A stretch of 35,572 nt of DNA, taken from positions 1 through 35,572 of the IMG/VR virus record IMGVR_UViG_3300033153_004166. The stretch is one strand, 5' to 3'. A program made the translations under genes and the position numbers. The stretch is from a virus. Shown here piece by piece: positions 5,183 to 22,243 of this stretch; position 1 is the first letter of the stretch; the number at the start of each line of letters is the position of its first letter. The notes under the pieces were generated by a model that saw only the letters and a program-made list of their open reading frames with translations, made no database searches and had not been told where the DNA came from.

Positions 5183-5381
5183 AATACTTCGCACTAATAC
5201 TCTTTGCTAACTCAATAAATGTTTCAATCTCATTTTTATCCTCTGCATTCTTAGGAATGGGAGGAAGTTTAAATGTTACTCCTGCTTGATATTTAATAAG
5301 TTGATCAAAAGCCTCGGACTTATTGATAAGTCCCATCTGTACACCATAAATTAATTGTTCTATTAAATAACTTAATTTCAT
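5175..5381 (-). CDS. Hypothetical 68-aa protein, coupled to HNH gene
   Basis: The start ATG overlaps the stop of the upstream HNH gene (ATGA), and the GAGAGA just before it may serve as a weak ribosome site. The product is 68 aa, helical, with one Pro-rich turn (KLPPIPKN). I do not recognise a family. The gene converges on the holin-like gene and overlaps its last eight bases, so the two transcription units meet with no spacer and no visible terminator. Confidence 0.55.
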   Translation of the reverse strand: MKLSYLIEQLIYGVQMGLINKSEAFDQLIKYQAGVTFKLPPIPKNAEDKNEIETFIELAKSISAKYST

Positions 5382-5911
5382 TTCTCTCTCGCTTTTTTAG
5401 ATAATTTCCATACAGTAGTTGGACAAATGCTAAACCTCTTAGCTAAATCTTTAGCCGTCATTTCTTTAGAGTTAAACATTTTAGTTATAAAATCTCTCTC
5501 TACATTTTTAAGTTTAGCAGAAGGGTTATCTTCTCCATAACGTTTCATAAGACCAGTATCTCTTGCATGAATAGAGTTACCTTTATGAGTAGTCCATTCC
5601 ATGTTTACTATTCTGTTATCTGTTTTGATACCATTTAGATGATTTATACAAGGTAGGAAATGTGGGTTAGGTATGAAAGCCATCGCTATCACTCGGTGAG
5701 AATACATATATTTATTCTTGCCTTTTTTATCATAGAGTGTTACAACTTTATAACCTCTAATCTTTACTGGTTGAGCTAGTTCGATTAAAGATGTGGGATC
5801 TATGTCGAATGTTTTCTTGTTTGTTTTAGTGGTTAATACTCGGTGAGAGTAGATTTTCTCGTCATCACTTACTGAGTATAAATCCTCAAACCCTACAACG
5901 GGCTTAATCAT
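5378..5911 (-). CDS. HNH homing endonuclease with NUMOD4 domain
   Basis: I place the start at ATG 5911, six bases after a GGAGG site; a TTG two codons upstream is open but unnecessary. The product is 177 aa. The first 25 residues fit NUMOD4 (VVGFEDLYSVSDD). The HNH core follows, with SHRVIAMAFI, the N-H-x-N-G-x-K-x-D-N segment and NMEWTTHKGN. The last 45 residues form a helix-turn-helix (MTAKDLAKRFSICPTTVWKL). This order is typical of free-standing phage homing endonucleases, which nick or cut DNA in intron-less or intron-containing alleles. It sits in a minus-strand block and is coupled to the 68-aa gene downstream. Confidence 0.88.
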   Translation of the reverse strand: MIKPVVGFEDLYSVSDDEKIYSHRVLTTKTNKKTFDIDPTSLIELAQPVKIRGYKVVTLYDKKGKNKYMYSHRVIAMAFIPNPHFLPCINHLNGIKTDNRIVNMEWTTHKGNSIHARDTGLMKRYGEDNPSAKLKNVERDFITKMFNSKEMTAKDLAKRFSICPTTVWKLSKKAREK

Positions 5912-5928
5912 GTACAACCTCCGTGTTG

Positions 5929-6426: not shown

Positions 6427-6458
6427 AAAAAAAAGAGGGCAGACATCTGCCTACCCTC
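6427..6458 (-). terminator. Rho-independent terminator of the lipoprotein operon
   Basis: On the minus strand a stem built from GGCAG/CTGCC, extended by GAG/CTC across a small bulge, is followed by eight T residues (plus-strand A at 6427-6434). It lies seven bases after the stop of the 29-aa membrane peptide and closes that operon. Confidence 0.82.
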
Positions 6459-6922: not shown

Positions 6923-7228
6923 TTATAAAAAGTTTATATATTCTTGTCTAAAACTGTCATAGTCTGTTACTTCGCCATCGACAAAAGTAACAGAGCAATA
7001 GACGGATTGACATTGTATCTTTCTGTAGTAGGTAAACTTGATAGTGTAGTTACCTTGCACAACATGATCCGCAGATCCGAACATATCCATAACTTCTCTA
7101 GGTGTCATACCTTTAGAAATTTTCTGATCATGAGTGTAACGACTATAGTTAGGCTTATCTACCTTTGTGTAAGTAGAAGCACAACCTGTAAATAAAATCA
7201 AAATAAATGTAATTAGTAGTGTTCTCAT
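6923..7228 (-). CDS. Lipoprotein with BamE/SmpA-like domain
   Basis: The 101-aa product has an N-terminal signal (TLLITFILILFTGC) whose lipobox ends at Cys16, so it should be lipidated and exported. The mature part contains KISKGMTPREVMDMFGSADH, the helical signature of BamE/SmpA/OmlA proteins, followed by beta-strand sequence with two Cys. BamE is a lipoprotein of the outer-membrane beta-barrel assembly complex. A phage copy might modify the envelope, exclude other phages or contribute to lysis; this is inference. The ATG overlaps the TGA of the regulator gene upstream (ATGA), so the two are translationally coupled. Confidence 0.78.
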   Translation of the reverse strand: MRTLLITFILILFTGCASTYTKVDKPNYSRYTHDQKISKGMTPREVMDMFGSADHVVQGNYTIKFTYYRKIQCQSVYCSVTFVDGEVTDYDSFRQEYINFL

Positions 7229-7377
7229 TCTTCCTCCTTATTGTTCATGTCATCTAAAAATATGTTATAAGAGTAGTGAATCATTTGAAGCACTAACTCC
7301 TGTAGAGAAACACCTTGCTTAGCAGCCATTACTTTTAACTTCTGGTGTAGTTCTTCGTCTATTCTAACTATTTTCAT
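7225..7377 (-). CDS. Ribbon-helix-helix (CopG/Arc-type) regulator
   Basis: The 50-aa protein starts at ATG 7377 after AAAGGAGG with a 5-base gap. It has the RHH pattern: a short beta strand MKIVRIDEEL, helix one HQKLKVMAAKQ, the turn GVS and helix two LQELVLQMIHYSY, then an acidic tail. Such proteins dimerise and bind short palindromic operators. It is first in its operon. Just upstream lies a promoter overlapped by an 8+8 bp palindrome, so autoregulation is likely. It could also act on the similar control regions near 6350 or 8450. Confidence 0.78.
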   Translation of the reverse strand: MKIVRIDEELHQKLKVMAAKQGVSLQELVLQMIHYSYNIFLDDMNNKEEE

Positions 7378-7505: not shown

Positions 7506-7859
7506 TTAGATGCGAGGCAATCTTTTCAAGGTATATGATTCGGCTTCAAAGAAATCTTTCGTGAATACAGCGGCTTGCACAGAGTCATAATCTTTACAAG
7601 AAAAGATGTCTAAATAAATACTGTTTGTGTCTTCAGCAAAATGTGCGGTGATGCATGAGGTCTCTATTAATTGTACTAAACTAAATCCCTTTACTCTTGG
7701 GTCTTTTCCGAATCGAACAATGGTAGGCTCACCATAGGCTTGCATCTCCAAAAGCTCTACAAGGGCAATTGTGAACTCCTCTATTTTAAGTGCGGATCGA
7801 ATAAACGAAGGGTTACAATTTTTAAGATCAATAGATGTACTCCAACCCCAAGCTACCAT
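7506..7859 (-). CDS. Divergent SpeD-family pyruvoyl decarboxylase (candidate ornithine/arginine decarboxylase)
   Basis: The 117-aa product belongs to the AdoMetDC/SpeD fold. It has the N-terminal STSIDLKNCNPS strand and the processing region LIETSCITAHFAED, where Ser68 is the expected pyruvoyl precursor. His73 and Cys88 (in LDIFSCKDYD) match the family's processing and catalytic residues. Unlike the canonical copy at 11500, the cleavage motif is E-T-S-C rather than E-S-H, and G-x-D-x-R-V-x-G-F-S precedes it. I recall that phage and bacterial SpeD homologues of this subtype have been found to decarboxylate ornithine or arginine instead of SAM; assigning that activity here is inference. It is last of three coupled minus-strand genes and overlaps the upstream stop by seven bases. 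Confidence 0.8.
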   Translation of the reverse strand: MVAWGWSTSIDLKNCNPSFIRSALKIEEFTIALVELLEMQAYGEPTIVRFGKDPRVKGFSLVQLIETSCITAHFAEDTNSIYLDIFSCKDYDSVQAAVFTKDFFEAESYTLKRLPRI

Positions 7860-8128
7860 AACGTGCCTTGATCAATTTCCTCAACAGGAGGTTCTACAGT
7901 TTCCATAATAAATTGCACGGACTGCAATTGTTTATTTGCTAAAATTCTCAACACGTCAACAGCTCGGTAATAGTGCAAGTTGATGTTGGGTTCTTCTTCA
8001 GTTAGAATATCACGGAAAATATCTACACTATAATCACTGAAGCTTACAGGAAATACACCCATCTTAGTAAGACTTTGCTTAACGCCTGGGCTATGGATAT
8101 AAACTAAATCTGTAGATAGGAGTTGCAT
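7853..8128 (-). CDS. Hypothetical 91-aa protein coupled to the divergent SpeD
   Basis: It starts at ATG 8128, overlapping the preceding stop (TAATG), and its own stop overlaps the SpeD start. The product has a mixed N-terminal half (DLVYIHSPGVKQSL), a helical middle and an acidic C-terminus ending DQGTLW. No motif is recognised. The tight coupling on both sides suggests it is made in step with the decarboxylase, possibly as a partner, but nothing in the sequence proves that. Confidence 0.62.
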   Translation of the reverse strand: MQLLSTDLVYIHSPGVKQSLTKMGVFPVSFSDYSVDIFRDILTEEEPNINLHYYRAVDVLRILANKQLQSVQFIMETVEPPVEEIDQGTLW

Positions 8129-8385
8129 TAGTCGGGCAACTCTACTTTAAGAGCAACCTTTAAAAGGTAATGATACTTAGTAATCATTTGTACCCTTTTA
8201 GTTTCATAATGCTCTTTTAGTTCTTTCTCTATTTCTAAGATAAATTCTTTGAACTCTGCGTCAGTGAGGTTATCCTTATTAATAACTATTAAAGATAACT
8301 TCATACCGTGAAGTTGATCCTTGGCAATCTGTAGTCTATAGTCTAACATCTTAAATTGAATCTTACGAATCATGTAGTCATTCAT
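8128..8385 (-). CDS. Hypothetical 85-aa helical protein, first gene of the divergent SpeD operon
   Basis: I choose ATG 8385, nine bases after GGGAG; an in-frame GTG at 8418 is further upstream and lacks a good ribosome site. The protein is highly charged and helical (LTDAEFKEFILEIEKELKEH) and ends in a hydrophobic segment with VALKVELPD. No family is recognised. It is read from the divergent control region toward the SpeD gene. Confidence 0.6.
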   Translation of the reverse strand: MNDYMIRKIQFKMLDYRLQIAKDQLHGMKLSLIVINKDNLTDAEFKEFILEIEKELKEHYETKRVQMITKYHYLLKVALKVELPD

Positions 8386-8418
8386 TATATTATACTCCCA
8401 ATTATCTTGCTGGCACAC

Positions 8419-8449
8419 ACTATATCAAATTTGAAAAGGGTCTGTCCAA
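8419..8449 (-). promoter_or_regulatory. Minus-strand promoter of the divergent SpeD operon
   Basis: On the minus strand, TTGGACA (8449-8443) precedes TATAGT (8424-8419) by about 18 bases. The -35 abuts the left arm of the large inverted repeat, so a protein on that repeat could control this promoter. Confidence 0.4.
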
Positions 8450-8493
8450 TATAATAATTAGATAGATCTCGCTCCATCTATCTAATTATTATA
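8450..8493. repeat. Perfect inverted repeat, 18-bp arms
   Basis: The left arm 8450-8467 (TATAATAATTAGATAGAT) and right arm 8476-8493 are exact reverse complements around the 8-base centre CTCGCTCC. Each arm contains one copy of the 10-mer that recurs to the right. There is no T-tract typical of a terminator. It is better explained as a dimeric protein-binding site or cruciform element at an origin. Confidence 0.9.
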
Positions 8494-8570
8494 CTTGACT
8501 TTTTAACTCAGGTATGTTAAGGGAGCTATCTAATTTTGAGATAGGTACTATCTAATTATTGTATTTGACA
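8456..8570 (+). repeat. Iteron-like 10-mer array (CTATCTAATT)
   Basis: CTATCTAATT occurs in direct orientation at 8478-8487, 8526-8535 and 8548-8557, and inverted at 8456-8465. The last two direct copies start 22 bases apart, about two helical turns. The first and third are extended by similar tails, ATTATTATACTTGAC and ATTATTGTATTTGAC, each supplying a TTGAC that can serve as a -35 box. This fits iterons or operators for the Rep-like protein encoded just to the right. Confidence 0.7.
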
Positions 8571-8594
8571 TGACACAGTGCTCCTTCGTAAGAT
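8565..8594 (+). promoter_or_regulatory. Plus-strand promoter in the control region
   Basis: TTGACA at 8565-8570 and TAAGAT at 8589-8594 are separated by 18 bases. The -35 is the end of the third iteron-like repeat, so binding there would repress it. It points toward the Rep-like gene. Confidence 0.5.
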
Positions 8595-8729
8595 AGATAG
8601 TAAAAGGAAAAATTCTAAATAAGATTTGTGAAAATAAAACTTGACAAACTGTTTTTATTTAGATTAGACTTTTTGTACGAGTCTATACAGGTTTGTACAG
8701 GTATCTTGTAGCAAGGATGCACTTTTAAT

Positions 8730-8779
8730 TTGACATAATAATTAATCTATATTATTATTAGTTGTTATTATTATGTCAA
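8730..8779 (+). promoter_or_regulatory. Strong promoter with 13-bp-arm inverted repeat
   Basis: TTGACA 8730-8735 and TATTAT 8753-8758 have the ideal 17-base spacing. The 13-base arm starting at the -35 (TTGACATAATAAT, 8730-8742) recurs inverted at 8767-8779, so the palindrome brackets the promoter and expected start near 8765. This is a likely operator for the Rep-like protein or another repressor. Confidence 0.65.
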
Positions 8780-8805
8780 TATACTAACACATTCTTGCTA
8801 AGAAG

Positions 8806-8835
8806 AAGGATACCTATTAGGTGTCCTTTTTTTTT
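8806..8835 (+). terminator. Rho-independent terminator / attenuator just before the Rep-like gene
   Basis: AGGATACC (8807-8814) pairs with GGTGTCCT (8820-8827), including one G-U pair, around a 5-base loop, and is followed by nine T residues to 8835. From the promoter at 8730 it would make an RNA of about 70 bases. The left arm can also pair with GGTATCTT near 8700-8707 in transcripts started further upstream, a possible antiterminator. Confidence 0.8.
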
Positions 8836-8847
8836 GTGGAGAAACTA

Positions 8848-9594
8848 GTGTGGAGTGCAGAGACATTTTATAAACAGAACAAGTTAAAGGTACACATGAA
8901 TAAGGTGTTAGCTTTTGGCTTTGCTGAAGGTTCGCCCACTCTTAGGGTAAACACAGTTAATCATGTTTCATGTTATGCTGATAACCTAACTAATTTTGTT
9001 ATTCAAAATAAAGCTAACTACTCTTTTCACCAAAGTAAATCTATTGACACTTACTTGAATGATACTCTCCAAGATTTTATACATGACATAAATAAACACC
9101 GAACAACTTTTTTATTAAAAGATAAATTTCCAATAAAGGAACTTAAATATAATGTTAAGTATGTTATCAAGTCTAACTTTTTTGCCAACATAAAAAAGAT
9201 AGTGAAGGGGATACCTAGAGAACAAATTTGGGTTGAAGCTGCTGACGGAAAGAGTCTTACTAATTATCATTTAGAGAACATGCTTAATGTTAACCTTAAG
9301 TACGTACCTATGGACATGGTAAGAAATTTACCCAATAATTCAACGAGATTGATTCTTTACCTTTTAGCTAGAATAAAGATGGGTGAAGCCAAAGAGATTT
9401 ATTGGAAAGAGCTTTATGAATTTTATGGCTCTTCTCATAGAAACGGAAGAAGAGAAGTAATCAAAGACCTAGATGAACTTGCTCATGCAAAGTTGATCTA
9501 TTACTCTTATGAACAATATTCAAAGTTTTTCCAATTTAGATTGATCTATAAAAAACAGTCAATCTACAAAAAAGAAGAGGTAATAGTTGAGTAA
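8848..9594 (+). CDS. Putative replication initiator (Rep-like winged-helix protein)
   Basis: The frame is open from 8821, but that first GTG lies inside a terminator hairpin. I choose GTG 8848 with GGAG six bases upstream; ATG 8896, behind AAAGG, is a good alternative. The product is about 248 aa and Lys/Asn-rich. The C-terminal part (MVRNLPNNSTRLILYLLARI, then a basic NGRREVIKDLDELAHAKLI segment) resembles the winged-helix fold of plasmid-type Rep proteins. Support from context is better than from motifs: an iteron-like array lies upstream and a DnaB-like helicase downstream, and no DNA polymerase gene was recognised. A plain transcription regulator is the main alternative. Confidence 0.55.
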   Translation: MWSAETFYKQNKLKVHMNKVLAFGFAEGSPTLRVNTVNHVSCYADNLTNFVIQNKANYSFHQSKSIDTYLNDTLQDFIHDINKHRTTFLLKDKFPIKELKYNVKYVIKSNFFANIKKIVKGIPREQIWVEAADGKSLTNYHLENMLNVNLKYVPMDMVRNLPNNSTRLILYLLARIKMGEAKEIYWKELYEFYGSSHRNGRREVIKDLDELAHAKLIYYSYEQYSKFFQFRLIYKKQSIYKKEEVIVE

Positions 9595-9766
9595 ATTACT
9601 CGGGTTATGCATCAACTTTGAAAATAGTGCATCAGTATTGACGAGGACACCTCTGAGAACCCTTTGTAGTAAAGGATTCCAAGTGCCCTCTATAAATAGT
9701 TAAAGACTATAAGGGTTTGGTCGTTAACACTCCCAATCCCTAATAAAAAAAGAAGAGGAAAGAACC
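9595..9766 (+). other. Structured leader between the Rep-like and helicase genes
   Basis: No gene fits in these 172 bases. The heptamer TGCATCA occurs twice 24 bases apart near 9607 and 9631. Potential hairpins include GAGG-ACA-CCTC, CCTTTGTAGTAAAGG and ATAGT-TAAAG-ACTAT. AACCCTT (about 9656-9662) can pair with AAGGGTT (about 9711-9717) to enclose the others. The last bases give AGAGGAAAGAACC before the helicase ATG. It may be a structured 5' leader; I recognise no known riboswitch. Confidence 0.4.
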
Positions 9767-11359
9767 ATGAACCAGATTGATCGAGTAAGACATGTAATTT
9801 TAAGTTGTGTTTCTATTAGAGACTCAATAGAGGATCAAGCTTTATTAGCTAACTTCTTAAATATTAATAGTTCTACTATCTCATTTGCTTCAGATGAGCA
9901 TAGGAAAATATTTAGGTACATTCATAAATATTTTATGAAGCATGAAAGTCTACCTGCTACTCACTTGTTATTTGAAAATTACACTGAGGACCCAGACACC
10001 TTAGCAGAACTTTATAAGATATTTAAAATAACAGATCACAACAAACCTTATAATGTTCCAGTCTTCTTTTTTGGAACAGATTTAAAAGAAGTGATTGATG
10101 ATATTATTGAGGAGCAGTGTGAGAAAGATGTTTTAAAAGCTCAAAAAGAAACGAATCAGATTATTGAACAGGGAATGAAGGTTAGTTACAACAAGAATCT
10201 TAAGGGTATTCATGATGGCGTTGACTATTTATTTGAGAATGTTAGAAAAGCGATACGCCCTTTAGAAGAACCTGTATCTTATTCTAAGAAATCTTTATTC
10301 TCTGATATACAAGATAGGAAGTCAGAGTTATCTGAAGACGGTATCCCTATTCTCCAAACTGGTTTTGAACCCTTTGATGATAAGTATGATGGGTTATATT
10401 TATCAGAGTTCTTATTATTCATAGCTCACACTGGAGAGTTAAAATCAACTCTCACTATGAATGCAATTTATAACATGTGGTTAGTCCAAGATGCCAACAT
10501 TGAATATATAAGTTTAGAAATGACGGTTAGAGATTGTTGGGCTTATTTTATTAGTTTACATTCTGCCAACAATCGTTATTGGGTAGATGGACAAACTCCT
10601 CTCCCAAAGAAACAACTTAAGAGGTACTTCTCTGAGAAAGCTCGTAATGGAGACTCATGTGCTTTAAACGATGAACAGTTATTAAGACTTGAGGAAGTAA
10701 TTAAAGATATAGAGAGTAGAGAAGCTCACTTAGAGTTCCGAGCTAATCATGGTAGGTGGACAGTACAGGAAATTGAAAACCATTGTTTAAATGTTGAGCT
10801 TACAGAAAAAATTAGAATTGATGTAATTGTTATAGATCATGGAGAGTTGATAGTTGGTACTGAAAGAGACAGACTTGCTTCTACTGATAAAAATTTAAAG
10901 GAGTTAAGGGAGCTTACTCTTAGATATCAGAAGAATAGGGGAGTAAGAATCATAGTTCCTTATCAAACAAATAAAAATGGAAAAGCTGATGCAAAGAGAG
11001 AGAACTATAAGTATACAACATCTTCTCTATCTTGGAGTACCGAAGCTCCAAGATCTGCAACAATGATTATAGCTTCTTACTATGATGGGATTCCAAAAGA
11101 AAATGGATACGCTGCCATCTCAGTAGTTAAAACAAGAGATGATGGTTCAGGAGATCAATTCTCTTTAAACGTAGATAAACTTGACTATTACAAATTATAC
11201 CACGATCCTAAGATGAGAACTGATTTTGTAAATGTACCAAGTAGAACTGGTGGGATAACAAAAAAGGAGACTAGAGATTTAGATGCTCTTCTTGATGCTC
11301 CTGATAATTCTTACGGAGCAGAGCAAATAGCTAATGACAGCTATAACTTAGACAAATAG
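9767..11359 (+). CDS. DnaB-like replicative helicase with atypical Walker A
   Basis: The 530-aa protein has a DnaB-like N-terminal helical domain (residues about 15-100) and a RecA-fold C-terminal half. Visible motifs in DnaB order are IAHTGELKST (219-228; Lys226 is the phosphate-binding Lys, but the Gly before it is Leu), YISLEMT (247-253), VIVIDHGELI with Asp357, and VPYQTNK followed by a region ending TEAPRSATMII. DnaB proteins unwind the fork as hexamers. With no phage polymerase or primase recognised, this helicase probably recruits host replication proteins, guided by the Rep-like protein encoded upstream. It heads an operon continuing into the polyamine genes. Confidence 0.8.
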   Translation: MNQIDRVRHVILSCVSIRDSIEDQALLANFLNINSSTISFASDEHRKIFRYIHKYFMKHESLPATHLLFENYTEDPDTLAELYKIFKITDHNKPYNVPVFFFGTDLKEVIDDIIEEQCEKDVLKAQKETNQIIEQGMKVSYNKNLKGIHDGVDYLFENVRKAIRPLEEPVSYSKKSLFSDIQDRKSELSEDGIPILQTGFEPFDDKYDGLYLSEFLLFIAHTGELKSTLTMNAIYNMWLVQDANIEYISLEMTVRDCWAYFISLHSANNRYWVDGQTPLPKKQLKRYFSEKARNGDSCALNDEQLLRLEEVIKDIESREAHLEFRANHGRWTVQEIENHCLNVELTEKIRIDVIVIDHGELIVGTERDRLASTDKNLKELRELTLRYQKNRGVRIIVPYQTNKNGKADAKRENYKYTTSSLSWSTEAPRSATMIIASYYDGIPKENGYAAISVVKTRDDGSGDQFSLNVDKLDYYKLYHDPKMRTDFVNVPSRTGGITKKETRDLDALLDAPDNSYGAEQIANDSYNLDK

Positions 11360-11371
11360 GAGGAACTAATC

Positions 11372-11503
11372 ATGGAAGACATATTGGCTCTAAGGTTGGA
11401 GTACATCAAAGTAATGACAGACAGTAGTATAGATCCAGAGCTTAAAGAAGAGTTCAGAGAATATTACGAAGCAGAAGTACAATCATTCAAGGAGGAACAA
11501 TGA
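11372..11503 (+). CDS. 43-aa acidic helical protein before speD
   Basis: ATG 11372 follows TAGGAGGAACTAATC at the helicase stop, a strong ribosome site. The product is 43 aa, acidic and helical (LRLEYIKVMTDSS, then PELKEEFREYYEAEVQSF). Its stop TGA overlaps the ATG of the next gene (ATGA), and its last codons contain the ribosome site of that gene, so it couples helicase and SpeD translation. No family is recognised. Confidence 0.68.
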   Translation: MEDILALRLEYIKVMTDSSIDPELKEEFREYYEAEVQSFKEEQ

Positions 11504-11826
11504 GACATGTATTTTGCCGTTTCAATAACGGAACCAAGAACAACCAAACAATAGTAGGAGCATTATTATCAAGTGCTCAAGATTTCAATTTAGATGTAAG
11601 AGAAATATCAACTCACTTCTTTCATGAACCTGAAGGTGTCACATCAATACTTTTACTCGGTGAGTCACACTACTCAGTACATACTTTCCATGAAACTAAC
11701 TCATACCAAGTAGATCTTTTCAGTTGTAACCCTGAGACGAACATAAAGGGCATTATTAGAGACTTTGCAAAAAAGACAGGTGCAACTATAGATGACATCG
11801 TAGAAATTGACAGGGGACTGAAATGA
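11500..11826 (+). CDS. speD: S-adenosylmethionine decarboxylase proenzyme (SpeD)
   Basis: The 108-aa proenzyme is short but matches class-1B bacterial AdoMetDC. The canonical processing motif GESHYSVHTFHE is present, with cleavage expected between Glu55 and Ser56 so that Ser56 becomes the pyruvoyl group; His61 and Cys76 (VDLFSC) are the conserved processing and catalytic residues. The enzyme decarboxylates SAM to give the aminopropyl donor for spermidine synthesis. It starts behind GGAGG, overlaps the upstream stop, and its own TGA overlaps the ATG of the SpeE-like gene. That direct coupling to the enzyme using its product supports SAM as substrate. A distant paralogue lies at 7506-7859 on the other strand. 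Confidence 0.9.
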   Translation: MRHVFCRFNNGTKNNQTIVGALLSSAQDFNLDVREISTHFFHEPEGVTSILLLGESHYSVHTFHETNSYQVDLFSCNPETNIKGIIRDFAKKTGATIDDIVEIDRGLK

Positions 11827-12503
11827 GTTCACTGTTTGCCAAGATAATAGATGGTCCTCATGAATACTTTTTAAAAGTAAGAAAGGTACTTGAACAAAAA
11901 ACAACTAAATACCAAGAAGTATTAATAGCAGAGATTGATGATCACGGTAAAACTCTTATACTAGATAACGAATTACAAACATGCTATGTGGATGTAGTAC
12001 CTTATCATGAAGCTATGGTACACTTCTATACTCCTAAACCTGAAGAAAGAGTATTAGTGCTCGGATCTGGAGAGGGGCTTAGTGTTGATATACTGATCCG
12101 TAGAGGGTGGGAAAATATAGACGCTGTAGAAATAGATGAAGAAGCCTGTGAAATGTATGATAAACATTTATCAGATTGGAACCACAACATCTATAAAAGA
12201 CAGGATGAGTTTAACATGATCTTTGATGATGGACTAGAAGTTTTAAAAGCTACTCCTGATCAATACTATTCTTATGTGATATTTGATTTAGATAGTAAGT
12301 CTATTCTAGAGAACCAAAAGGAATGGATCACTGAGATACATAGAGTGTTACACCACAACGGCTTACTTACATGCCAAGATGGGGAGAACACAGGTCTATC
12401 CTATTTTGATAAAACGGTAAGAGAAGTGTTCGGTACAATACCTGAGAGGAAAGGTCTACTTGATTGGTCATGGCTTCACACTCCTAAGAAACCTATTTTA
12501 TAA
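11823..12503 (+). CDS. speE: Spermidine synthase-like aminopropyltransferase (SpeE)
   Basis: The 226-aa product has the small N-terminal beta domain of SpeE (TTKYQEVLIAEI, then LILDNELQT and YHEAMVHFY, residues about 27-69) and a Rossmann core with VLVLGSGEG (77-85) and AVEIDEE (101-107). DDG at 135-137 fits the adenine-binding acidic residue, and VIFDLDSK (152-159) stands where classical enzymes have D-S-T/S-D-P. The loss of that exact motif means the acceptor amine is uncertain: putrescine, agmatine or another diamine. It is about 60 residues shorter than many bacterial SpeE proteins. It is coupled to SpeD by ATGA and ends the replication/polyamine operon. Confidence 0.82.
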   Translation: MSSLFAKIIDGPHEYFLKVRKVLEQKTTKYQEVLIAEIDDHGKTLILDNELQTCYVDVVPYHEAMVHFYTPKPEERVLVLGSGEGLSVDILIRRGWENIDAVEIDEEACEMYDKHLSDWNHNIYKRQDEFNMIFDDGLEVLKATPDQYYSYVIFDLDSKSILENQKEWITEIHRVLHHNGLLTCQDGENTGLSYFDKTVREVFGTIPERKGLLDWSWLHTPKKPIL

Positions 12504-12530: not shown

Positions 12531-12558
12531 GAGGTGATTGACTCTCATTGGTCACCTC
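12531..12558 (+). terminator. Hairpin after speE
   Basis: GAGGTGA and TCACCTC form a 7-bp stem around a 14-base loop, 28 bases beyond the SpeE stop. The downstream T content is modest, so it is a possible weak terminator or RNA-stabilising hairpin. Confidence 0.5.
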
Positions 12559-19367: not shown

Positions 19368-20288
19368 ATGGGTGAAGAAGGAAACGCAGCACCAGAAGCT
19401 GCAGAAGGAACATTAGATGTTGGGGAAGCTGAAGGAAATACACTTGAAGTTAGCGAGGGTGGAGAAGCTCCTAAATCAGCTACTGAAGAGGTCATTGAAA
19501 AGCTCAACCGCAAGTTCAAGGTACGTATTGATGGGGTCGATTCCGATGTTGACGAAGCAGAACTCATCAGAAGTTATCAACTTAGAAAGGTGTCAGATAA
19601 AAGACTAGATGAGGGAATGAAGGCTAGGAAACAAGCTGAATCATTTCTCCACATGTTAAAGACTGACCCACAAAGAGTTTTATCTGATCCAAGGATAGGA
19701 CTAGATGTTAAGAAGTTTGCTGAAGATATTATTTATAAGCAGCTTCAAGATGAAATGCTTACACCAGAGCAGAGAGAGTTATCAAACTATAAAGCTAAAG
19801 TGAAACAGTATGAGGCTCATCAGCAAAAACTGCAGGATGAAGCTCGTCAAAAAGAAGCTTCTACTCTCCATGAGCAACAACGTGATGCTTATGTAACTGA
19901 CATTTCAGATGCACTATCTAATGCTGGACTTCCTAAGAACAGCTATACAGTTCAAAGAGTTGTACATGAGATGACTCGTGCTATTAAGGCAGGCTTCTCG
20001 AATGTAACAGCACAAGATGTTGTTGACATGGTACACACTCAGTTTGTAAAAGATACCAAAGAGCTATATGGGAATAGTAGTGAAGAAACACTTATGAAGT
20101 TATTAGGTGATGAGGTTTCTAGTAAGATTAGAAACTATGATTTAGAGGCATATCGTCAGAAGAACTCTATCCCTAAGACTAATAGTGTAAAGGGAACTAG
20201 CGGAAAACCAGTTAGATCTAAGAGAGGAAAAGTCCTATCTCCTGCAGAGTTAAGAGATAAGATAGAAAAAGAGTATGGCTTAGGCTAA
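19368..20288 (+). CDS. Capsid scaffolding protein
   Basis: The 306-aa protein has an acidic N-terminus (Glu/Gly/Ala-rich, residues 1-45), a long charged helical centre (about 45-240) with coiled-coil potential, and a basic C-terminal segment (SGKPVRSKRGKVLSPAELRD). This charge layout and the place between portal and major capsid protein are characteristic of podovirus scaffolds. Scaffolds guide capsid assembly through a basic C-terminal contact with the coat protein. It starts behind GGAGG. An AP2/HNH endonuclease gene on the other strand overlaps its last four bases. Confidence 0.82.
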   Translation: MGEEGNAAPEAAEGTLDVGEAEGNTLEVSEGGEAPKSATEEVIEKLNRKFKVRIDGVDSDVDEAELIRSYQLRKVSDKRLDEGMKARKQAESFLHMLKTDPQRVLSDPRIGLDVKKFAEDIIYKQLQDEMLTPEQRELSNYKAKVKQYEAHQQKLQDEARQKEASTLHEQQRDAYVTDISDALSNAGLPKNSYTVQRVVHEMTRAIKAGFSNVTAQDVVDMVHTQFVKDTKELYGNSSEETLMKLLGDEVSSKIRNYDLEAYRQKNSIPKTNSVKGTSGKPVRSKRGKVLSPAELRDKIEKEYGLG

Positions 20289-20773
20289 TCAGGAAAATTT
20301 AGATAACCACAATACTCCCCGAAGAGTTCTATTGCTTTCTTGTCACGAACTAAAGCAGCCTCTTTGGGGCATTTGAAGTTACCTAGATGGTAAGCTTTAC
20401 CTTCACATCTTACCTGTGCCCTCCAACAATTACCAGCTTTGTACCAGTAGACTCCTATATAACCTGACTTGTTATTTGAACTTATATTTTGTTTGTTCTT
20501 ATTATTCTGACCAATAGTAACCTTTCTAAGATTGGTCTTCTGATTATTTAAACCGTTCCCATCTTCATGATCTATTTTAATACTAGAATCTTTAATACCT
20601 AGTATAAGCCTATGCATTCTAATAGATTTTCTAGGCTTATAAGAATAATCATAAGCCTTAGCATAATGTGTACGGTGTTCTTTTACCAAGTACCAGTGAA
20701 AGTCTTTAACTTTATCCCAATCTTCTTCATCAATAAGAGCAATCTTGCCGTGTGTTAATTCTATATTTCTCAT
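20285..20773 (-). CDS. HNH homing endonuclease with AP2 DNA-binding domain
   Basis: The 162-aa protein has an HNH core (residues about 15-95: IRMHRLILG, IDHEDGNGLNN, NLRKVTIGQNN) and a C-terminal AP2 domain (about 100-160: SGYIGVYWYKAGNCWRAQV, YHLGNF, EAALVRDKKAIELFGEY). AP2-HNH proteins are free-standing phage homing endonucleases. It is inserted opposite to the late genes, between scaffold and capsid, with its own minus-strand promoter. No ribosome site precedes the ATG, and the -10 box ends six bases away, so its message may be leaderless and poorly translated. Confidence 0.9.
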   Translation of the reverse strand: MRNIELTHGKIALIDEEDWDKVKDFHWYLVKEHRTHYAKAYDYSYKPRKSIRMHRLILGIKDSSIKIDHEDGNGLNNQKTNLRKVTIGQNNKNKQNISSNNKSGYIGVYWYKAGNCWRAQVRCEGKAYHLGNFKCPKEAALVRDKKAIELFGEYCGYLNFPD

Positions 20774-20972: not shown

Positions 20973-21320
20973 ATGTCAAACCTCGCATCGCAAACCCTTA
21001 CAGGCTTCTATAAAGACATGTATGGTGAGCAAGTAAAGGTAATTCCTGAGGTATCAAAACTTCAGAAGGCAATCAAGTTTATCGAAGCCAGCAAACAGCC
21101 AGGTGGAGATTTTATTAACAACGTAGTATTAACACATGAACACGGTGTTTCTTATCTAGCCAGTAATAGTGGTCTAGAAGGATTAAATGATCGTGTCCCT
21201 ATGATTACAGGTAAAGCATCAGTTCTTGGTTCTAACCTAGTAATTAGATCAGGTTCTCTCAAGAAGATGCTGACAGAGCAAGTTCTGACAAGAAAGCATT
21301 TGCATCTATCGTTCCAATGA
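20973..21320 (+). CDS. Major capsid protein, N-terminal part (frame-disrupted gene)
   Basis: This frame starts at ATG 20973 behind AAAGGAG and encodes the N-terminal arm and first part of a HK97/P22-type coat protein (TGFYKDMYGEQVKVIPEVSK, FIEASKQPGGDF, LVIRSGS). After about residue 96 the frame leaves the family pattern and ends in TGA 21318-21320. The proper continuation lies in the -1 frame, open from 21248: QEDADRASSDKKAFASIVPM runs directly into the second part. The shift therefore lies in about 21248-21272, where the sequence is GGTTCTCTCAAGAAG. A lost base in the assembly is the simplest explanation; no classical slippery heptamer is present. Confidence 0.75.
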   Translation: MSNLASQTLTGFYKDMYGEQVKVIPEVSKLQKAIKFIEASKQPGGDFINNVVLTHEHGVSYLASNSGLEGLNDRVPMITGKASVLGSNLVIRSGSLKKMLTEQVLTRKHLHLSFQ

Positions 21321-22243
21321 TCATCGAAGTAATGAGTGAGTCTATTTCTAAGAGATTAGAGATTAGTTTACTTTACGGACAAAGTGATCTTGGAGTAGCT
21401 GCTGCTGCTGCAAAGTCTGGAACAACTTCTGTTCTTACATTTGCTGCTGCTGAATGGTCAGGAATCTGGGCTGGAGCTGAGCAAGCAAGAGTAGCTGTTA
21501 AAGTTGGAGCTACTGTTTATGGTCCTTTTAAGATTACTGCTGTAGATTTTACTAACAGAACTCTTACATTAGATGAAACTTCTGATGTTAATGGAGCTGA
21601 TGGTTCTAGTACAGGAGATATCGATGATATTGATGACGAAGCAACAGTTTCTCTTTTCTTCTATGGATCAATTGTTAAGTCTGATGGTTCTTTCAGAGAT
21701 ATGATCGGTCTTGATAAGATTCTTACAACTGATGGTTCTTTATTTGGAATCAATAACAGCACTTACGCTCTTTGGAAAGGTAACAGAGTTTCTGTTTCTG
21801 GAAGATTAACTTTTGCTAAACTTATTGCTGCTCTTAATGTGCCAGTAATCAAAGGATTACAAGAGAAGATTGAAGTGTATGTACCAGTAGAAACTTGGCA
21901 GAACCTTAATGCCGATCAAGCTGCTCTTAGACGTTATGACGGAAGTTATAGCAAAGAGAAAGCTGACATGGGTGTGAAGAGTATCAAGTTTTATGGTCAG
22001 TCTGGAGAAGTTGAAATAATTTCTCACCCCTATCTTAAAGCATCAGAAGCTTTTGCAATTCCTGTGGACAAGTTCCGTAGAGTTGGAGCGACTGACATTA
22101 CCTTTAAGAATGCTAAGGATGACAGAGTATTCTTTGACCTTGAAAACCATTACGGAATGGAGCTGAGAGCACATTGTAATCAAGCACTATTTCCTAGATT
22201 GGTATCAACGTCTGTTAAGATCTACGGATTCACAAACGAATAA
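21317..22243 (+). CDS. Major capsid protein, C-terminal part
   Basis: The first ATG in this frame is at 21317, but coding sequence clearly extends back to about 21260 as the continuation of the 20973 frame. The whole coat protein would be about 423 aa. Family segments are SESISKRLEISLLYGQSDLG near its start and an inserted Ala/Gly/Thr beta-rich part (GTTSVLTFAAAEWSGIW). The core continues through KGLQEKIEVYVPVETW and VEIISHPYLKASEAFAIP to a C-terminus ending KIYGFTNE. This is the shell protein assembled around the scaffold. No ribosome site serves ATG 21317, which argues against a separate gene. Confidence 0.85.
   Translation: MIIEVMSESISKRLEISLLYGQSDLGVAAAAAKSGTTSVLTFAAAEWSGIWAGAEQARVAVKVGATVYGPFKITAVDFTNRTLTLDETSDVNGADGSSTGDIDDIDDEATVSLFFYGSIVKSDGSFRDMIGLDKILTTDGSLFGINNSTYALWKGNRVSVSGRLTFAKLIAALNVPVIKGLQEKIEVYVPVETWQNLNADQAALRRYDGSYSKEKADMGVKSIKFYGQSGEVEIISHPYLKASEAFAIPVDKFRRVGATDITFKNAKDDRVFFDLENHYGMELRAHCNQALFPRLVSTSVKIYGFTNE

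Follow-up and report, generated by a model that had tools for sequence, protein, structure and literature searches.

A phage-borne SpeD homologue predicted to decarboxylate ornithine, accompanied by SpeD and SpeE in a small tailed phage

The window, by which we mean the whole stretch of DNA analysed, is the 35.6 kb (35,572 nucleotides) IMG/VR record IMGVR_UViG_3300033153_004166. Terminase, portal, tail and helicase genes identify it as a tailed phage; a megablast search with positions 12500–35572 gave no match to named phages. Its last 114 bases are identical to the first 114. Because the end overlap of a related record (G035, described below) has the same length, the repeat probably reflects the assembler overlapping the ends of a circular contig, and the phage genome is probably complete whichever way the terminal repeat is read. 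ORFs of the HNH homing endonuclease type are located at 5378–5917 and 20285–20773 (both minus strand), the latter containing an AP2 domain. Two plus-strand ORFs, 20973–21320 and 21317–22243, overlap by 4 bases and match a single uninterrupted ORF of 424–431 residues in two related phages (G035 and G085); judged by this match, the pair may be a split gene or a frameshift, either real or from sequencing. The features of the polyamine locus are:

6435–6458, minus strand: terminator-like hairpin that closes the minus-strand operon (consensus match)
7506–7859, minus strand: SpeDC, predicted pyruvoyl-dependent L-ornithine decarboxylase of 117 residues with predicted self-processing at Ser68 (ORF, Pfam, trees, AlphaFold model)
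7656–7658, minus strand: codon of Ser68, the predicted cleavage and pyruvoyl-forming residue, with His73 and Cys88 downstream (alignment)
7853–8418, minus strand: two small ORFs (8128–8418 and 7853–8128) preceding SpeDC in its operon (ORF calls; no significant family match)
8419–8820, no strand: intergenic control region between the divergent operons, with two facing sigma-70-like sites
8821–11359, plus strand: genes ahead of SpeD, one without a named function (8821–9594) and one for a DnaB-like helicase (9767–11359)
11500–11826, plus strand: SpeD, AdoMetDC-type class 1b protein of 108 residues (PF02675, trees, alignment)
11823–12503, plus strand: SpeE, short aminopropyltransferase of 226 residues, its start overlapping the SpeD stop by 4 bases (PF01564)
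12531–12558, plus strand: terminator-like hairpin directly after SpeE (consensus match)

SpeDC belongs to a minus-strand operon, where ORF 7853–8128 overlaps its start by 7 bases; in the divergent operon on the plus strand, the helicase gene is followed by SpeD and SpeE. Each of the facing sigma-70-like sites, 8730–8758 (plus strand) and 8779–8751 (minus strand), matches the consensus at 11 of 12 positions, which is suggestive of divergent promoters; in the whole 8-kb region 46 promoter-like sites were found, with 33 expected by chance. Directly downstream of SpeDC, at 7225–7377 (minus strand), is an ORF for a 50-residue ribbon-helix-helix protein (HicB/ParD-like), to which the joined N-terminus of the G085 lipoprotein ORF is weakly similar (E 0.004).

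The SpeDC ORF is intact, running from ATG to TAA over 117 codons (7859–7506, minus strand), and encodes a class 1b SpeD homologue (PF02675, AdoMet_dc; E 1.7e-19, 70.6 bits at a cut-off of 25 bits). The residues named in the original prediction, the pyruvoyl Ser68 together with His73 and Cys88, were all found at the positions claimed, and the motifs ETSCITAH (66–73), STSIDL (7–12) and FSCKDYD (86–92) were confirmed. In the alignment, S68, H73 and C88 are equivalent to S63, H68 and C83 of the T. maritima AdoMetDC, which are essential for processing (Li et al., 2023, PMC10407285). The AlphaFold model of SpeDC has a pLDDT of 94.4, and the best solved structures in a fold search were those of the same T. 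maritima enzyme (TM 0.85–0.86).

The SpeD and SpeE genes that had been proposed at 11500–12503 are real, with matches to PF02675 (9e-17) and PF01564 (2e-14), respectively. SpeD keeps the equivalents of T. maritima F49, E62, S63, H64, H68, T69 and E72; Phe replaces W70, and His is found at the position of Pro71, which is Phe in the SpeD of G085 and Pro in that of G035. The histidine is compatible with AdoMetDC activity, since the proline is also missing from the assayed AdoMetDCs of phiYS40 and phiN3. In the trees, SpeD falls into the clade of assayed AdoMetDCs, on a long branch. On the NCBIfam model TIGR03330 (AdoMetDC) it scores 54 bits, below the cut-off of 75.65, which the SpeD of G035 passes with 79.6. 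SpeE scores 54 bits on PF01564, above the cut-off of 22.9, 75 bits on the speE equivalog model, below the cut-off of 249.55, and also 89 against a cut-off of 260. The C-terminal part of cellular SpeE is missing, the YHE motif is kept and the DxxD motif is altered; the model of its structure was poor (pLDDT 65) and was left out of the analysis. Single-sequence searches of IMG/VR found no kin of the two proteins. From these sequence features, the partner SpeD and the short SpeE may lack the activities for which they are named, and this is the weakest link in reading the three genes as a pathway. The description of SpeDC as a paralogue of SpeD should not be taken to mean a recent duplication: the two are only 25% identical over 61 residues (blastp E 0.001) and belong to different clades.

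A Gln, a Thr, a Phe and a Tyr are diagnostic of SpeDC (the ODC group), and a proline is conserved in true AdoMetDCs (Li et al., 2023, PMC10407285). The SpeDC of the window has all four diagnostic residues (Q63, T67, F74 and Y82), their positions being inferred from the text of that study and our alignment. Among the viral relatives, counts of these residues involve some circularity, as the search patterns include them. By alignment, SpeDC has no equivalents of T. maritima F49, E62, H64, T69, W70 and E72, several of which presumably line the SAM site, or of P71, at which position, three residues after the catalytic His, it has Glu. On TIGR03330 it reaches only 27 bits (cut-off 75.65), which is weak evidence against an AdoMetDC because the assayed AdoMetDC of phiN3 scores only 28.9.

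Among cellular proteins, the closest ones are about 50–60% identical to the SpeDC of the window; they are from Methanocalculus (60%), M. hungatei (58%), A. thermophila (55%) and Atribacteria (53%), and also from Methanoculleus. Any AdoMetDC reference scores below 54 bits against it. Placed in a tree of the SpeD family, as had been suggested at the outset, the protein clusters with SpeDCs and apart from AdoMetDCs; the assayed A. thermophila, M. hungatei and Atribacteria enzymes were represented by close relatives under other accessions. Support for its grouping with the cellular SpeDCs is 100/93 with all references, 100/92 without long branches and 98/91 with SpeDCs only, in trees that comprise about 124 columns and leave out HTVC201P, an assayed ADC that did not come up in the searches of phages. 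An alternative root of the SpeDC clade was not rejected (AU p 0.60). For the protein itself, placements within the nearest clade and immediately next to it were not separated by the test (p 0.35); under both placements the nearest kin by score are cellular SpeDCs. All 22 clade-invariant residues are kept, and the one change in a column invariant in the other clade members, I to L at 37, is conservative. The genes speD, speDC and speE are side by side in 7 of the 16 near cellular loci. A single alphaproteobacterial ORF of 410 residues (L150:5998–7230, plus strand) encodes a fusion of SpeDC-like and spermidine-synthase-like domains.

From its clade, the Gln/Thr/Phe/Tyr set, the lost AdoMetDC-type residues and the cellular speD-speDC-speE clusters, the SpeDC of the window is very likely an ornithine decarboxylase, which we favour over an ADC or an AdoMetDC. 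The earlier idea of a SpeD that no longer is an AdoMetDC and acts on ornithine or arginine is thereby supported, with ornithine as the favoured substrate; the protein very probably evolved from a SAM-cutting enzyme. Clade membership by itself leaves the substrate unfixed, because Li et al. (2023, PMC10407285) assigned the pelagiphage HTVC201P enzyme, an assayed ADC, to the SpeDC clade and the phiN3 SpeD, an assayed AdoMetDC, is close to it (PMC9992855). An arginine decarboxylase (SpeDA) would make agmatine, which the host would convert to putrescine as proposed for HTVC201P; the four-residue test may fail to separate an ADC of that type from an ODC, and the phage enzyme UCP01 accepts both ornithine and arginine (PMC9992855). 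However, the nearest relatives come from lineages whose assayed members use ornithine only, the enzymes of A. thermophila, M. hungatei and Atribacteria being ODCs without arginine or lysine activity (PMC10407285), and no agmatinase, agmatine deiminase or other agmatine-using gene was seen among the ORFs scanned in the window. We regard arginine as an improbable substrate.

A true AdoMetDC, kept as a spare or alternative SpeD copy as in Sinorhizobium phage phiN3, is very improbable. The phiN3 SpeD is among the best named-phage matches (32%) and has the Q, F and Y residues in common with the SpeDC of the window, but it has Asp at the Thr67 position and sits on another branch; besides the seven missing AdoMetDC-type residues and, weakly, the TIGR03330 score, the AdoMetDC-type SpeD already present in the phage genome argues against a second one. 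The occurrence of two SpeD homologues in one genome would also agree with a non-catalytic protein that acts as the trypanosome prozyme does, by binding the other SpeD and modulating it, and the T. brucei AdoMetDC/prozyme chain 5tvm appeared in the fold search, though as a weak match only (E 3e-3). Such a role is hardly to be expected of a protein that keeps the processing and catalytic residues along with every clade-invariant one, and whose presumed partner is only 25% alike and encoded in a separate operon.

Two related phages were found. The first, G035 (IMGVR_UViG_3300033153_004080, 32.6 kb), has terminase, portal and tail proteins about 50% identical to those of the window, and its genes for SpeDC (53%), SpeD (31%) and SpeE (55%) are arranged divergently as they are in the window. 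The second, G085 (IMGVR_UViG_3300035698_020136, 33.4 kb), is closer to the window (terminase 68%, portal 75%) and has SpeD (51%) and SpeE (55%); SpeDC was not found in it. In the window and in G035, SpeDC precedes the same lipoprotein gene, and the corresponding place is empty in G085. The simplest reading is a loss of SpeDC in G085. The alternative would be separate gains in the window and G035, whose SpeDCs do not come out as sisters, although a tree that pairs them was also not rejected (p 0.41).

Of 84 further viral records that carry a SpeDC-like or SpeD gene, G035 is the only one in which Pfam detected SpeE. As the G085 SpeE was found by blastp but not by the PF01564 search, the absence of SpeE was rechecked with phage SpeE queries; these agreed with the Pfam result over 113 loci with flanks and 50 whole records, many of the viral records being fragments. 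A second SpeD adjoins SpeDC in five viral records (G036, G039, G061, G071 and G084). Four others (G055, G056, G057 and G059; loci L062, L063, L066 and L068) have a second, weak AdoMet_dc match (24–37 bits) inside a 323-residue ORF about 1 kb from SpeDC. The record of Microcystis phage MaAM05 (MW495066.1; L038, L183), with two speD genes, speE and speB together, was considered as a phage precedent and rejected: it carries rplK, rplA, secE, nusG, trpS and rpsA and is thus very probably a mislabelled bacterial contig. Its speH_1 is a presumed SpeDA only, and its speD-speD-speE-speB cluster resembles one reported for Vampirovibrio.

The SpeDC of the window is like the cellular SpeDCs of A. thermophila, Ca. 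Atribacteria and M. hungatei (PMC10407285) in clade and diagnostic residues. While speDC adjoins speD and speE in several bacteria, here it is phage-borne, and its operon and that of speD-speE diverge. Phage SpeD-derived ODCs (LBP, UCP01–04) and an ADC (HTVC201P) have been described (Li et al., 2023, PMC10407285; PMC9992855); these SpeD homologues have given up SAM as a substrate, as is predicted for the SpeDC of the window, but they were reported as lone enzymes, whereas this one is accompanied by SpeD and SpeE. It also resembles cellular SpeDCs more than it does the viral group that is common in this analysis (about 40–47%), which may include kin of LBP, UCP01–04 and HTVC201P. One uncultured Caudovirales phage has SpeD and SpeE (PMC9992855), the same putrescine-to-spermidine pair, with no ODC reported; in the window, a step that would make putrescine is added. 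Algavirales have ODC, AdoMetDC and SpdSyn (PMC9992855), a full ornithine-to-spermidine route in large eukaryotic viruses, in contrast to the small phage studied here with its two predicted pyruvoyl enzymes and no PLP. In the open-access literature (subscription papers and preprints lying outside this scope) no report of a phage with SpeDC, SpeD and SpeE was found. What is new is this combination in a phage; SpeDC itself is a member of a known family.

Phages need spermidine, and studied phages mostly carry one polyamine gene. In the predicted route, SpeDC would cleave itself at Ser68 to form the pyruvoyl cofactor, which, with His73 and Cys88, would decarboxylate L-ornithine to putrescine; SpeD would remove the carboxyl group of SAM, and SpeE would form spermidine by transferring the aminopropyl group to putrescine. 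A single divergent control region near replication genes would start both operons, which makes a supply of spermidine during phage replication the likely role, with timing and benefit suggested by this arrangement. Of the proposal that a whole path is split over two divergent operons, the presence of the genes stands, and the layout is kept in G035. As the partner SpeD is without the proline reported as invariant in AdoMetDCs and scores below the NCBI cut-off, the complete path stays a prediction, though a well-supported one; taken together, the sequences incline us to think that the ornithine-to-spermidine pathway works. A further scenario is doubtful: that this is a lineage of small tailed phages with a complete PLP-free pathway in which SpeDC is gained or lost in a fixed slot, while the partner SpeD possibly shifts its substrate (the proline is lost, on a long branch, in the window and G085) and the product possibly is not spermidine.

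The two pyruvoyl enzymes of the predicted route, which involves no PLP, fit the idea put forward by Li et al. (2023, PMC10407285) that decarboxylases are favoured when they are small and free of PLP. That a 35-kb phage spends three genes on an ornithine route would suggest that putrescine can become limiting during infection, and the three related phages, two with all three genes and one with SpeD and SpeE only, make this idea testable.
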